A stretch of DNA of 45,506 nucleotides from Acidobacteriota bacterium. Its GTDB lineage: Bacteria > Acidobacteriota > Terriglobia > Bryobacterales > Bryobacteraceae. This document shows, in pieces, positions 36,378 through 39,687 of the stretch. The DNA is taken from NCBI GenBank assembly GCA_016215215.1, contig JACRKW010000112.1, positions 1 to 45,506 of the forward strand. Direction: 5' to 3'. Under the pieces are notes generated by a model. The model ran no database searches. It was not told the origin of the DNA and saw nothing but the letters and a program-made list of their open reading frames with translations. The position numbers were made by a program, and so were the translations under genes. Position 1 is the first letter of the stretch, and each line of letters starts with the position of its first letter.

Positions 36378-37235
36378 ATGCCCCGCATCCTGCCGCTTCT
36401 CGTTCTCCTCGCCGTGCTGCTCCCCGCCCAACAGCCCGCGCCCGGCTTCGTCAACCCCGTCAAGAAGACCCTCAAGGAAGGCGGCGTCGTCATCGGCGGT
36501 ACTATCCAGGCCGCCAATCCCGACACCGCCGCCATCATGGCCGGCGCTGGATTTGACTTTCTCTGGATCGAAGGCGAACACAGTCCTATCACCCTGGAAA
36601 CCACGCGCAACATCATCCTGCTTACACAGGGACGCAAAGCCGTGCCCTTCACCCGCGTCCCGGTCAACGAGCTCTGGACCGCCAAACGCATGCTCGATGT
36701 CGGCAGCCTGGGCGTCATCTTCCCCTTTACCGATACCGCCGACCTCGCCCGCCAGGCCGTCGCCGCCTGCAAGTACCCGCCCGCCGGCCGCCGCGGCTAC
36801 GGTCCGGGTCTGGCCTCCTTCCGCTGGCCCGTGCCCGAGGGCTATCCCAAGTGGGCCAATGACAACGTCATGGTCATCGTCATCGTCGAACGCCCCGTCG
36901 CCATCGATCACATTGAGGAGATCGCAGCCGTCCCAGGCCTCGACGTGATCTTCATCGGGCTGAATGACCTCTCCTATAACTACGGCGTCCCAGGCCAATT
37001 GACCGCGCCCGTCATGCGCGCCGCGGTGGAGCGCGTCATGTCCGCCGCGAAGAAGCACAACCTCCCCGTCGGCGGACCCGCCGGCGCCGCCGACGTCAAG
37101 CGCATGCTCGCCGAAGGCTACCGCTTCCTCCAGGGCCCCAGCGATCTCAGCCTCCTCCAATCCGCCGCCCGCGATTTCTTCTCATCCATCAAGGCCGCCG
37201 GCGTCGAGCGCAAAGACCCCACCCCCATTTACTGA
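36378..37235 (+). CDS. Exported HpcH/HpaI-family aldolase paralogue
   Basis: HpcH/HpaI aldolase with a predicted signal peptide (MPRILPLLVLLAVLLPAQQP), an unusual place for this normally cytosolic enzyme. The 285-residue product keeps the fold: FLWIEGEHSPITLETTRNII, TRVPVNELWTAKRMLDVGSL, KYPPAGRRGYGPGLASFRWP, the Glu of IVIVERPVAIDHIEEIAA and the Asp of LDVIFIGLNDLSYNYG. It resembles the cytosolic paralogue at 20133 over most of its length but keeps the standard GxRGxG loop. It begins 9 bp after the polymerase gene; a TATAAT (36364-36369) ends 8 nt before its ATG, so it may also be transcribed separately. A periplasmic lyase for sugar acids from polysaccharide is possible but unproven. Confidence 0.85.
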   Translation: MPRILPLLVLLAVLLPAQQPAPGFVNPVKKTLKEGGVVIGGTIQAANPDTAAIMAGAGFDFLWIEGEHSPITLETTRNIILLTQGRKAVPFTRVPVNELWTAKRMLDVGSLGVIFPFTDTADLARQAVAACKYPPAGRRGYGPGLASFRWPVPEGYPKWANDNVMVIVIVERPVAIDHIEEIAAVPGLDVIFIGLNDLSYNYGVPGQLTAPVMRAAVERVMSAAKKHNLPVGGPAGAADVKRMLAEGYRFLQGPSDLSLLQSAARDFFSSIKAAGVERKDPTPIY

Positions 37236-37353
37236 GCACGACGGTTCTATCCGGTCCCGTCGACAACTTCAGTAGTTGCCCTCCAACCTTGATCCGCGTT
37301 CATCTGCGTTCAGCAGCGCCCCATTCTCTCCAGTTCGTCGTGCTACCCTGGAG

Positions 37354-37471
37354 TCGCCGAATCTCTGGAGCTTGACTCCGGTGAGCGGGGGACCCAACTC
37401 CGGGGCGTATCGCGGCGCAAACCGCGTAGGGTACTTTTCAGCCCGAGCCCGTCAGCTAACCTCGCAGGCGA
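37354..37471 (+). ncRNA. ydaO-yuaA (cyclic di-AMP) riboswitch
   Basis: The leader of the permease gene carries the conserved ydaO core in order: GCCGAATC (37356-37363), the CTGGAG/CTCCGG stem, AGCGGGGGACCCA, GGGGCGTATC, a CGCGG/CCGCG stem (37411-37426), TAGGGTA, and CCCGAGCCCGTCAGCTAAC followed by CTCGCAGGCG (to 37470). TCGCC (37354-37358) pairs with GGCGA (37467-37471) as the closing stem. Known members bind c-di-AMP and usually shut off potassium transporter or cell-wall genes. A 7-bp hairpin (37484-37501) follows, then the ribosome site at 37506-37512, so control may be at translation or by termination; no U-run follows the hairpin. Motif recognition is strong; boundaries are approximate. 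Confidence 0.9.
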
Positions 37472-37483
37472 ATTGAAAGGCCG

Positions 37484-37501
37484 CCGGCCCCCTTGGGCCG
37501 G
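37484..37501 (+). promoter_or_regulatory. Hairpin between riboswitch and ribosome site
   Basis: CCGGCCC (37484-37490) and GGGCCGG (37495-37501) form a perfect 7-bp stem with loop CCTT, ending 4 nt before the AAAGGAG ribosome site. It is the probable expression platform of the riboswitch, although no U-run is present. Confidence 0.5.
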
Positions 37502-37518
37502 TGCGAAAGGAGCCCGCC

Positions 37519-39687
37519 GTGGCATCGTCCATGCCCGAGGCGCTGGCGCGCAATCGCGTCGTCATCGCCTCCACCATTGCCCTCTCGTTCATCTCCTTCT
37601 GGCGCGCCGCCGCCATCGTTCTCTCCGACCTTGCCTCTTCCGCCTACTACGTCGGCGGTATTGCTGAGCAGGCCATCGGCAAAGCGGCCCCCTGGTTCAT
37701 CCTGGCCATCATGCTCTTCTCCTACGCGGTTCGCGCCGTGTACATCGAAGGCTGCGCCATGTATGTCCGCGGCGGCGTCTACCGCGTCGTTCATGAGGCC
37801 CTCGGCTCCCGCATGGCCAAGTTGGCTGTATCCGCCCTCCTTTTCGACTACGTCCTCACGGGCCCCATCTCCGCCGTCTCCGCTGGACTCTACCTCGCCG
37901 GACTCGTGAACGAATCCGCCGAGCACTTCCTCCACCGCCCCAACCTGGTCAACACCGCCGCCTTCGCAGTTGTCTTCGCCCTTGCCGTCACCGTTTACTT
38001 CTGGCGCAAGAACACCATCGGCATCCACGAGTCCTCGCAGAAAGCTCTGCGCATCATGCAGATCACCACGTCCATGGTGGTGCTCCTTATTCTCTGGAGC
38101 CTTTACACCGTCTTTCGCGGCCACTACCAGGCCGTGCCGCTCCCCACGCTCGACAACATCCGCCTCAACTCCGAATCCCTCGGCTGGCTTCCGCTCTCCT
38201 GGGCCACCTCCGTCCCGGTCATCGCCGTTCTGGTGGGCCTGGGCCACTCCCTCCTCGCGATGTCCGGCGAGGAATCGCTCGCCCAAGTCAACCGCGAGAT
38301 CGCCCACCCCAAGCTCAAGAACCTGGAGCGCGCCGGTTTCGTCATCTTCATCTACTCGCTGCTGTTTACGTCCCTCGTCTCCTTCTTTGCCGTCATGATC
38401 ATCCCCGACGGCGACCGCAAGGCCTTTCTCGATAACCTCATCGGCGGCCTCGCCATGCACCTCGACGGGCCGCTCGGACTGCGCCTCGCCTTCCATGCCT
38501 TTGTCGTCTTCGTCGGCGCTCTCATACTCTCCGGCGCCGTCAACACCGCCATCATCGGCTCCAACGGCGTCCTGAATCGCGTCGCCGAAGACAACGTGCT
38601 GCCCGTGTGGTTCCGCAAGCCCCACAAGAGGTTCGGCACCACCTACCGCATCGTCAATATGGTGGTTGGCCTGCAGGTCCTCACCATCATCCTCTCCCGA
38701 GGCGACGTCTACCTTCTCGGTGAGGCCTACGCCTTCGGCGTCGTCTGGTCTTTCGCCTTCAACGCCACTTCCGTCCTCATCCTCCGCTTCAAGGACACCC
38801 GCCCCCGTGAGTGGAAAGTTCCAGGAAACCTCCGCATCGCCGGCCGCGAGTTTCCCATCGGGCTCGGTCTGATCGCGCTTTCGCTGTTCGTCCTCGCCAT
38901 TACCAACGTCCTCACCAAGAAGGTAGCCACCGTCTCCGGCGTCGCCTTCACTCTTGCCTTCTTCATCCTCTTCACAGTGACTGACCGGCTCAACCGCCGC
39001 CGCACCGGCGCTTCCACCGCCCACCACGAGCAGTTCCGGCTCGACGAGGCCGAGCAGGTCTCCCAACAAGCGGTCGACGCCCGGCCCGGCAACGTTCTGG
39101 TCGCAGTCCGCAATCCCAACCGCCTCAGCCATCTCCGCCGCGTAGTGGAAAAGACCGACGTGCGAAAAATCGATATCGTCGTTGTTTCTATCTCCGACGA
39201 GGATGCCCCCTTCACTGACCGCGAGGCCGAGCTCTTCACCCGAGTCGTCACCTTGGCGGAGAAGGCCGGCAAGCACGTCAAGCTCCTCACCGTTCCGGGT
39301 GACGACCCAAACACCACCCTCGTCCAGACCGCCGCACAACTCCAGTCTTCCCGCATCGTCATCGGCACATCGCCCAAACTCACCACCGCCGAGCAAGGCC
39401 GCGCCGTCGGTCTCCAGTGGGAGCGCCTGCCCGAACCCCGTCCTACCATGTCACTCGAGATCGTCCCCGACGACCCTGCCGCCAAGGCCTCGTTCGTCAA
39501 CCTCGGGCCCCACCCCCCCCGGCTCTGGCCCGAAGATATCGACCTGGTCCACCAGCTTTGGCTCGAGATGTCGGCTGCGCGCCCGGGCAAGACGCTCCAC
39601 CACCGCGATGTCGTCGGCCTCGCCCTCACCCGCCTGCGCGATGACTTCAAACGGGCTCCGGAGGCGATTCTCCCCCCGGAACATTAA
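37519..39687 (+). CDS. APC-superfamily permease with C-terminal Usp-like domain (KimA-like)
   Basis: Probable potassium or amino-acid importer of the APC superfamily. In the 722-residue product about 12 hydrophobic segments fill residues 15-500 (VVIASTIALSFISFWRAAAI, SALLFDYVLTGPISAVSAGL, GESLA-type loops such as MSGEESLAQVNREIAHPKLK). A soluble C-terminal domain starts near residue 525 (NVLVAVRNPNRLSHLRRVVE) with the Usp-like fold, as in KimA, which binds c-di-AMP there. A ydaO riboswitch lies directly upstream, which strongly supports a c-di-AMP-controlled transporter. GTG at 37519 is chosen because AAAGGAG (37506-37512) lies 6 nt upstream; GTG at 37501 and ATG at 37531 are alternatives. 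It is longer than Bacillus KimA by about 115 residues, mostly at the C-terminus. The substrate is inference. Confidence 0.85.
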   Translation: MASSMPEALARNRVVIASTIALSFISFWRAAAIVLSDLASSAYYVGGIAEQAIGKAAPWFILAIMLFSYAVRAVYIEGCAMYVRGGVYRVVHEALGSRMAKLAVSALLFDYVLTGPISAVSAGLYLAGLVNESAEHFLHRPNLVNTAAFAVVFALAVTVYFWRKNTIGIHESSQKALRIMQITTSMVVLLILWSLYTVFRGHYQAVPLPTLDNIRLNSESLGWLPLSWATSVPVIAVLVGLGHSLLAMSGEESLAQVNREIAHPKLKNLERAGFVIFIYSLLFTSLVSFFAVMIIPDGDRKAFLDNLIGGLAMHLDGPLGLRLAFHAFVVFVGALILSGAVNTAIIGSNGVLNRVAEDNVLPVWFRKPHKRFGTTYRIVNMVVGLQVLTIILSRGDVYLLGEAYAFGVVWSFAFNATSVLILRFKDTRPREWKVPGNLRIAGREFPIGLGLIALSLFVLAITNVLTKKVATVSGVAFTLAFFILFTVTDRLNRRRTGASTAHHEQFRLDEAEQVSQQAVDARPGNVLVAVRNPNRLSHLRRVVEKTDVRKIDIVVVSISDEDAPFTDREAELFTRVVTLAEKAGKHVKLLTVPGDDPNTTLVQTAAQLQSSRIVIGTSPKLTTAEQGRAVGLQWERLPEPRPTMSLEIVPDDPAAKASFVNLGPHPPRLWPEDIDLVHQLWLEMSAARPGKTLHHRDVVGLALTRLRDDFKRAPEAILPPEH

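Follow-up and report, generated by a model that had tools for sequence, protein, structure and literature searches.

A ydaO-type riboswitch precedes a predicted potassium importer of a divergent KUP/KimA-like lineage in Acidobacteriota

In Bacillus subtilis, cyclic di-AMP (c-di-AMP) governs both the expression of the K+ importer KimA, through the ydaO riboswitch, and its activity (excerpts of PMC10284832). Residues D36, Y43, D117, S125, T230, E233 and Y377 make up the K+/H+ set of KimA (excerpts of PMC10284832 and PMC6994465), and its cytosolic domain is described as PPAT-like in the same excerpts of PMC10284832. KdpD binds c-di-AMP by a domain of the universal stress protein (USP) type featuring the motif (A/G/C)XSXSX2N(Y/F) (excerpts of PMC8214093). 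The c-di-AMP riboswitch of Corynebacterium glutamicum nlpC lacks a canonical terminator, and translational control has been proposed from reporter data (excerpts of PMC9960051). Here we describe a locus of the same kind found in a stretch of 45,506 nucleotides (the window; contig JACRKW010000112.1, forward strand), one of the contigs of the genome of an Acidobacteriota bacterium (GCA_016215215.1, Bryobacterales, Bryobacteraceae; 4.7 Mb, 84.9% complete), in which a leader resembling the ydaO-yuaA RNA precedes a permease gene. Among named genomes, those nearest to the source belong to Bryobacterales and to further Acidobacteria. The arrangement itself is the textbook pairing of riboswitch and K+ transporter, in a new lineage. 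Among the papers listed in searches of the openly licensed literature, none deals with c-di-AMP riboswitch or permease control in Acidobacteria; as far as this search goes, novelty lies in the lineage, in a permease variant whose cytosolic domain is of the USP type, and in a spacer hairpin conserved among relatives.

The RF00379 covariance model is matched by the leader over its full length (1-134), and this is the sole match in the source genome at E <= 0.001. The ydaO-yuaA core motifs reside where the original prediction had placed them, and the proposed closing stem (37354-37358/37467-37471) corresponds to the Rfam P1 stem extended by one T-A pair (37354/37471). The predicted ligand is c-di-AMP. 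Leaders were compared in the window's order, represented by 200 genomes; 35 of the 39 riboswitch-bearing loci read at length were aligned, L060, L065, L066 and L068 being omitted because the anchor pattern was not matched or the start was too distant, as were L071 and five short loci. The loop, CUUUCAA or CUUUUCA, forms 7-9 consecutive pairs with a purine-rich tail located 3' of P1 in 32 of the 35 leaders, the window among them. The mean own pairing exceeds all 20000 re-pairings (z 5.8). Two of the three exceptions are true (L037 and L069); L059 was counted as a miss through a wrongly chosen loop. The same loop-tail pairing is readable in the crystallised ydaO RNA (sequence and pseudoknot in excerpts of PMC5393176), and the acidobacterial pseudoknot is therefore an already known element. 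The aligned leaders also share a -10-like consensus, TGnTAnnnT, immediately 5' of the aptamer. Judging from this element, the transcript probably begins at the aptamer edge; a scan with the sigma-70 consensus found no promoter. Pseudoknot and -10-like element were both missing from the original prediction.

In the aligned leaders a hairpin occupies a nearly constant position, bounded by the pseudoknot tail on one side and the Shine-Dalgarno sequence on the other; in the window it has a 7-bp core (37484-37490/37495-37501) and reaches 9 bp with the flanking pairs. Hairpins formed by their own arms have a mean energy of -8.6 kcal/mol, whereas those with swapped arms average -6.0 (z -8.6; 0 of 20000 permutations; 33 leaders, L051 and L059 being omitted for want of a recognised ribosome site). 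The arms hence vary together, and the hairpin is kept by compensatory change; aptamer, pseudoknot and hairpin are all covered by comparative evidence. No terminator-like site, and no stem followed by a U-run, was found in the interval 37230-37620. The 7-bp hairpin directly before the ribosome site, lacking a U-run and differing from the usual terminator, had thus been correctly described. Given that compensatory change preserves the hairpin and that no terminator was found, control is likely exerted, judging from the layout, at the level of translation. The window leader has the aptamer class and the loop-tail pseudoknot in common with B. subtilis ydaO/kimA, and differs from it in lacking a terminator and in having a spacer hairpin set against the ribosome site. 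It is likewise similar to the nlpC riboswitch in the lack of a canonical terminator; the latter controls a cell-wall peptidase, however, rather than a permease (excerpts of PMC9960051).

Table 1. Features of the riboswitch-permease locus in the window
Feature	Coordinates	Strand	Basis
Extended -10-like element TGCTACCCT	37341..37349	+	consensus of 35 aligned leaders
Predicted c-di-AMP riboswitch aptamer (RF00379)	37345..37484	+	83.3 bits, gathering 38, E 4.8e-18
P1 closing stem, 5' strand CGCC	37355..37358	+	Rfam alignment
Pseudoknot loop strand CTTTTCA	37434..37440	+	7-9 consecutive pairs with tail, 32/35 leaders
P1 closing stem, 3' strand GGCG	37467..37470	+	Rfam alignment
Pseudoknot tail strand TGAAAGG	37474..37480	+	pairing with loop strand, 32/35 leaders
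Spacer hairpin 37482-37490/37495-37503, no U-run	37482..37503	+	arm-swap test, fold, no terminator
Shine-Dalgarno AAGGAG	37507..37512	+	read from sequence; relatives purine-rich 5' of start
Permease gene, GTG start, 722 aa	37519..39687	+	PF13520, 1.6e-54
APC-fold transmembrane domain, aa 1-497	37519..39009	+	AlphaFold model, KimA 8b70 fold match, residues
Candidate K+/H+-site residues of the transmembrane domain (D37 Y44 D110 Y111 S118 S249 E252 Y404)			invariant 41/41
C-terminal cytosolic domain, aa 498-722	39010..39684	+	model pLDDT 93.9, PDB folds, 117 rows

The GTG start lies 6 bases behind AAGGAG, and the encoded protein is, as had been noted, 115 residues longer than KimA (607 aa). Its Pfam match is AA_permease_2; no named NCBIfam match was obtained at E 0.001, nor any match by tblastn of plasmids. 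The AlphaFold model of the 722 residues (pLDDT 75.6) finds as top PDB fold KimA with c-di-AMP (8b70, E 3.7e-15), with 8b71 second and 6s3k fourth. Human cation-chloride cotransporters lie between and behind these entries, and amino-acid transporters match over about the length of the membrane domain. The cotransporters NCC, NKCC1 and KCC, the next best full-length folds, combine an APC-fold membrane domain with a C-terminal domain, as the permease does, at 10-13% identity in the fold alignments. The K+/H+ residues of KimA, mapped through an alignment bridged by KimA and KimA-like proteins of Acidobacteriota, correspond in the order given above to D37, Y44, D110, S118, S249, E252 and Y404 of the permease, and KimA Y118 to Y111. 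The only change is T230 to Ser, and the set is invariant in 41/41 family members. E. coli Kup shares this set except that D117 is replaced by E. K+ is thus the substrate suggested by the residues, and judging from sequence and model the permease looks like a KUP/KimA-like protein in its working, not like a KimA.

In the order, the riboswitch was detected in 45 of the 200 genomes, one per genome, and in 45/45 loci it precedes the same permease family (40 from 38 fetched stretches together with L071 and the window, and five more). In L066 and L068 the leader was missed by the text pattern; on the same contigs (L076 and L086) the Rfam match nevertheless lies in front of the permease. The permease open reading frames (ORFs) are mostly 718-761 aa long; L043 and L061 end prematurely, at 667 and 566 aa, and a few are cut off by the end of the contig. 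In a phylum-level sample of 297 Acidobacteriota genomes the riboswitch was found in 53. Only part of the matched places were available as loci; 29 were read, one of which (L217) has no downstream ORF, and several of the 28 chosen ORFs lie far downstream and are possibly not the riboswitch target. These 28 include three KimA (46-48% identical to the B. subtilis protein), four KimA-like proteins (30-35%), two Kup, one other APC permease and two members of the window family (64-65% identical to the window protein); apart from the BLAST matches, names were given by reading. Since KimA, KimA-like and Kup proteins reside behind the same riboswitch, the window family fills the slot of known K+ importers. 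The other 16 include two (L211 and L224) in which the riboswitch is found 265-281 bases before an ORF whose reading suggests a D-Ala-D-Ala ligase, and thus a role in the cell wall. A gene for a diadenylate cyclase, sought as a check on the original prediction, is present in the source genome: a CdaA-type gene (TIGR00159 above cut-off), clustered with glmM and separated from it by a single ORF.

The locus is best explained, in our opinion, as a c-di-AMP riboswitch which probably represses translation of a K+ importer belonging to a divergent KUP/KimA-like lineage. At high cell K+ and c-di-AMP the aptamer would close P1 and the tail UGAAAGG would dock into the loop CUUUUCA; the docked tail runs directly into the hairpin ending just before the Shine-Dalgarno sequence, and a packed RNA block would form beside the ribosome site, hindering the 30S subunit and turning translation OFF. 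At low c-di-AMP the tail would be free and the gene translated. Steric hindrance by docked tail and hairpin is our best guess for the mode of control. If correct, c-di-AMP control of K+ uptake would extend to an abundant soil phylum, a large family called amino-acid permease by Pfam would gain a functional handle, and a comparative case would be available of a c-di-AMP riboswitch seemingly acting on translation with no terminator.

Several results weigh against this explanation. On the RNA side, the stability of the hairpin relative to shuffled sequences is weak (mean z -0.44; 10/35 leaders below -1). No consistent change of state was found in the burial of the ribosome site by pairing in the 33 leaders, the docked state being imitated by folding only the RNA 3' of the tail: the mean unpaired probability is 0.52 tail-docked versus 0.50 tail-free, the site being more open in 7/33 and less open in 6/33 leaders. 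The switching step is therefore not explained by pairing. In nlpC a CTCC sequence has been proposed to pair with the ribosome site (excerpts of PMC9960051); in the folding of the window-type leaders, general pairing of the site showed no dependence on state. Pairing of the 5' arm of the hairpin with P1 (anti-P1), checked by eye only, did not look consistent. In the phylum survey, 16/28 downstream ORFs read as something other than a plain K+ or APC transporter, several of them being possibly the wrong ORF.

On the protein side, sequence searches of the PDB (phmmer, hmmsearch) found no related solved structure, KimA included. Profile comparison by hhalign matched the family to KimA over the membrane domain only and at a moderate level (92%, E 5.6e-7). 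The APC controls L189 (1.5e-12), L182 (6.5e-11) and L184 (9.9e-9) scored better than KimA, a result indicating that KimA does not stand out on profile similarity alone; the KimA-sized L181 (6.9e-16) and L185 (1.5e-14) scored higher still, and E. coli Kup gave no score with the family. APC controls from the source genome itself were limited to L192 and L194, since L190, L191, L196 and L197 were not recovered. In a tree of 28 rows the window family forms a clade of its own (100/100), not inside KimA and separate both from the clade of KimA and KimA-like proteins (98/95) and from five APC rows (99/97); in branch order, the APC rows are closer to it than KimA is (94/89). A constrained tree uniting it with KimA is not rejected (p-AU 0.135), and the deep order is unsure because branches are long. 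That the permease is unrelated to KimA, as the failed sequence searches had suggested, was overturned by searching with the predicted fold, by KimA-type sequences that bridge the two, and by the comparison of residues. The designation of the permease as KimA-like, made at the outset, thus holds for the KimA-related fold and the retained K+/H+ residues; the protein falls outside the KimA clade, and the data neither establish nor reject a grouping with KimA. With B. subtilis KimA it has the fold type and the ion site in common, and differs in its separate clade, its length and its USP-like cytosolic domain. L181 and L185 have the D/Y pair, carry Ser at the position of D117, differ in the C-terminal region, and form a further phylum lineage retaining most of the ion site.

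The protein may in addition be inhibited by c-di-AMP through its C-terminal domain, which would provide control at two levels as in B. subtilis KimA; compatible with translational repression, this is a tentative view, and we regard it as rather doubtful. The full-length fold nearest to the permease is KimA with c-di-AMP. The domain alone, modelled from the 117 rows, consists of a USP-like core (about aa 522-649) followed by a conserved extension of two helices (about aa 658-712, LGPHPPRLW...LHHRD). The nine top-ranking PDB folds all belong to USPs or KdpD-USP (E 1.7e-5 to 4.3e-4), with a modest TM by query of 0.35-0.42, and several of these USPs carry dAMP or cAMP. The KdpD USP domain with c-di-AMP (7ji4) ranks fourth (E 4.0e-5, TM 0.35/0.55), cation-chloride cotransporters appear from rank 14, and KimA is absent among the 50 PDB rows listed. 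The fold is hence nearer to nucleotide-binding USPs, the c-di-AMP-binding KdpD domain included, than to the domain of KimA. No PF00582 (Usp) Pfam match was found in the window protein; 29/117 relatives have one at E <= 0.1 (best 5.3e-6). A Usp-like domain "as in KimA", as originally proposed, is thus correct for the fold and loose as a comparison, the KimA domain being PPAT-like and the nearest folds being USPs.

Residues of known c-di-AMP sites are poorly retained. The KdpD motif is absent from the domain, in which the positions read A-V-R-(N/D)-(P/Y): the first serine is replaced by Arg in 112/117 rows, the second by Pro in 70/117 and by Tyr in 33/117. The first glycine of the ribose loop is kept (G in 113/117) and speaks for inhibition through the domain. 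With the S. aureus KdpD USP (7ji4) the window domain shares the fold and this glycine, and differs in the missing motif, in the fusion to a transporter and in the conserved two-helix extension. KimA Arg337 corresponds to Val in the window protein and to Asp in 24/41 family members; this residue is not essential for inhibition, as KupB, which has no Arg337, is still inhibited (excerpts of PMC10284832). The cytosolic domains of KimA and the permease were not aligned by hhalign, and the domain could not be matched by sequence to the KimA pocket (P479, V506, H579-S582). The second permease of the family in the source genome (L186, G000:C158) has the same C-terminal domain and no riboswitch, a further point against control at both levels. 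The proposed c-di-AMP-type domain thus stands as regards its USP-like fold, not as regards Arg337 and the KdpD serines, and c-di-AMP binding by the permease is only a possibility. Of the idea that one signal acts on synthesis and activity, the riboswitch side is retained; the protein side is possible, and the idea itself is already established, having been published for B. subtilis KimA (excerpts of PMC10284832). A larger hypothesis, which we consider unlikely, is that Acidobacteriota have their own lineage of K+ importers whose fused USP-like domain senses c-di-AMP through a pocket unlike those of KimA and KdpD, under a translational riboswitch that blocks the ribosome without pairing to its site; if true, two-level control by one signal would have arisen here with a different protein sensor. 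Domain residues G166, H168, P170, H181, W184 and H198, located after the USP core, are invariant in 117/117 rows; H168, H181, W184 and H198 are encoded within 39502-39603.

Control might instead be transcriptional, c-di-AMP stopping RNA polymerase through Rho or through a U-less hairpin, with the spacer hairpin as the stop signal. The conservation of this hairpin by compensation, 3' of the pseudoknot, would fit such a role, and Bacillus c-di-AMP riboswitches act by termination (excerpts of PMC6488665); the lack of a U-run and of any terminator-like site, and the location of the hairpin directly before the Shine-Dalgarno sequence, which leaves little room between platform and gene, make it improbable. 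That amino acids or some other solute are the substrate of the permease, c-di-AMP regulating it among several osmolyte systems, is quite improbable too: the Pfam name, the branch order in the tree and the three APC controls placed above KimA by hhalign all point that way, yet the KUP/KimA ion-site set is invariant in the family and missing in L182, L184, L192 and L194 (parts of it are kept in L189, L181 and L185), the KimA, Kup, L181-type, L200 and window-type rows are together split from the five APC rows (99/97), and in the phylum this riboswitch also stands before KimA and Kup.

As to the permease family, at least 565 relatives were found in named genomes. In the 79 loci kept, 76 titles name Acidobacteria or subgroups, those of L092, L096 and L099 being otherwise; the permease lineage resides chiefly in Acidobacteriota. 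A second permease, or its start, is found downstream on the same strand in L037, L049, L055, L057, L058, L061, L063 and L066, and the corresponding genomes have only one riboswitch each. In the source genome neither Kup nor TrkH was matched at E 0.001, a weak absence as the genome is incomplete. KdpA is split into two adjacent ORFs (L230/L231, G000:C362:7002-8676; profile 2-400 and 433-548), through gene breakage or else misassembly, and two ORFs with KdpD domains are located on the same contig (G000:C362). A search for KdpD-like neighbours of the permease family gave scattered, mostly weak cases. Kinase matches, mostly weaker, were detected near L094, L048, L042, L139 and L134; in L188 (1833-5000, G003:C6) a relative of the permease is directly followed by a DUF4118-GAF-HisKA kinase, similar to the C-terminal half of KdpD.

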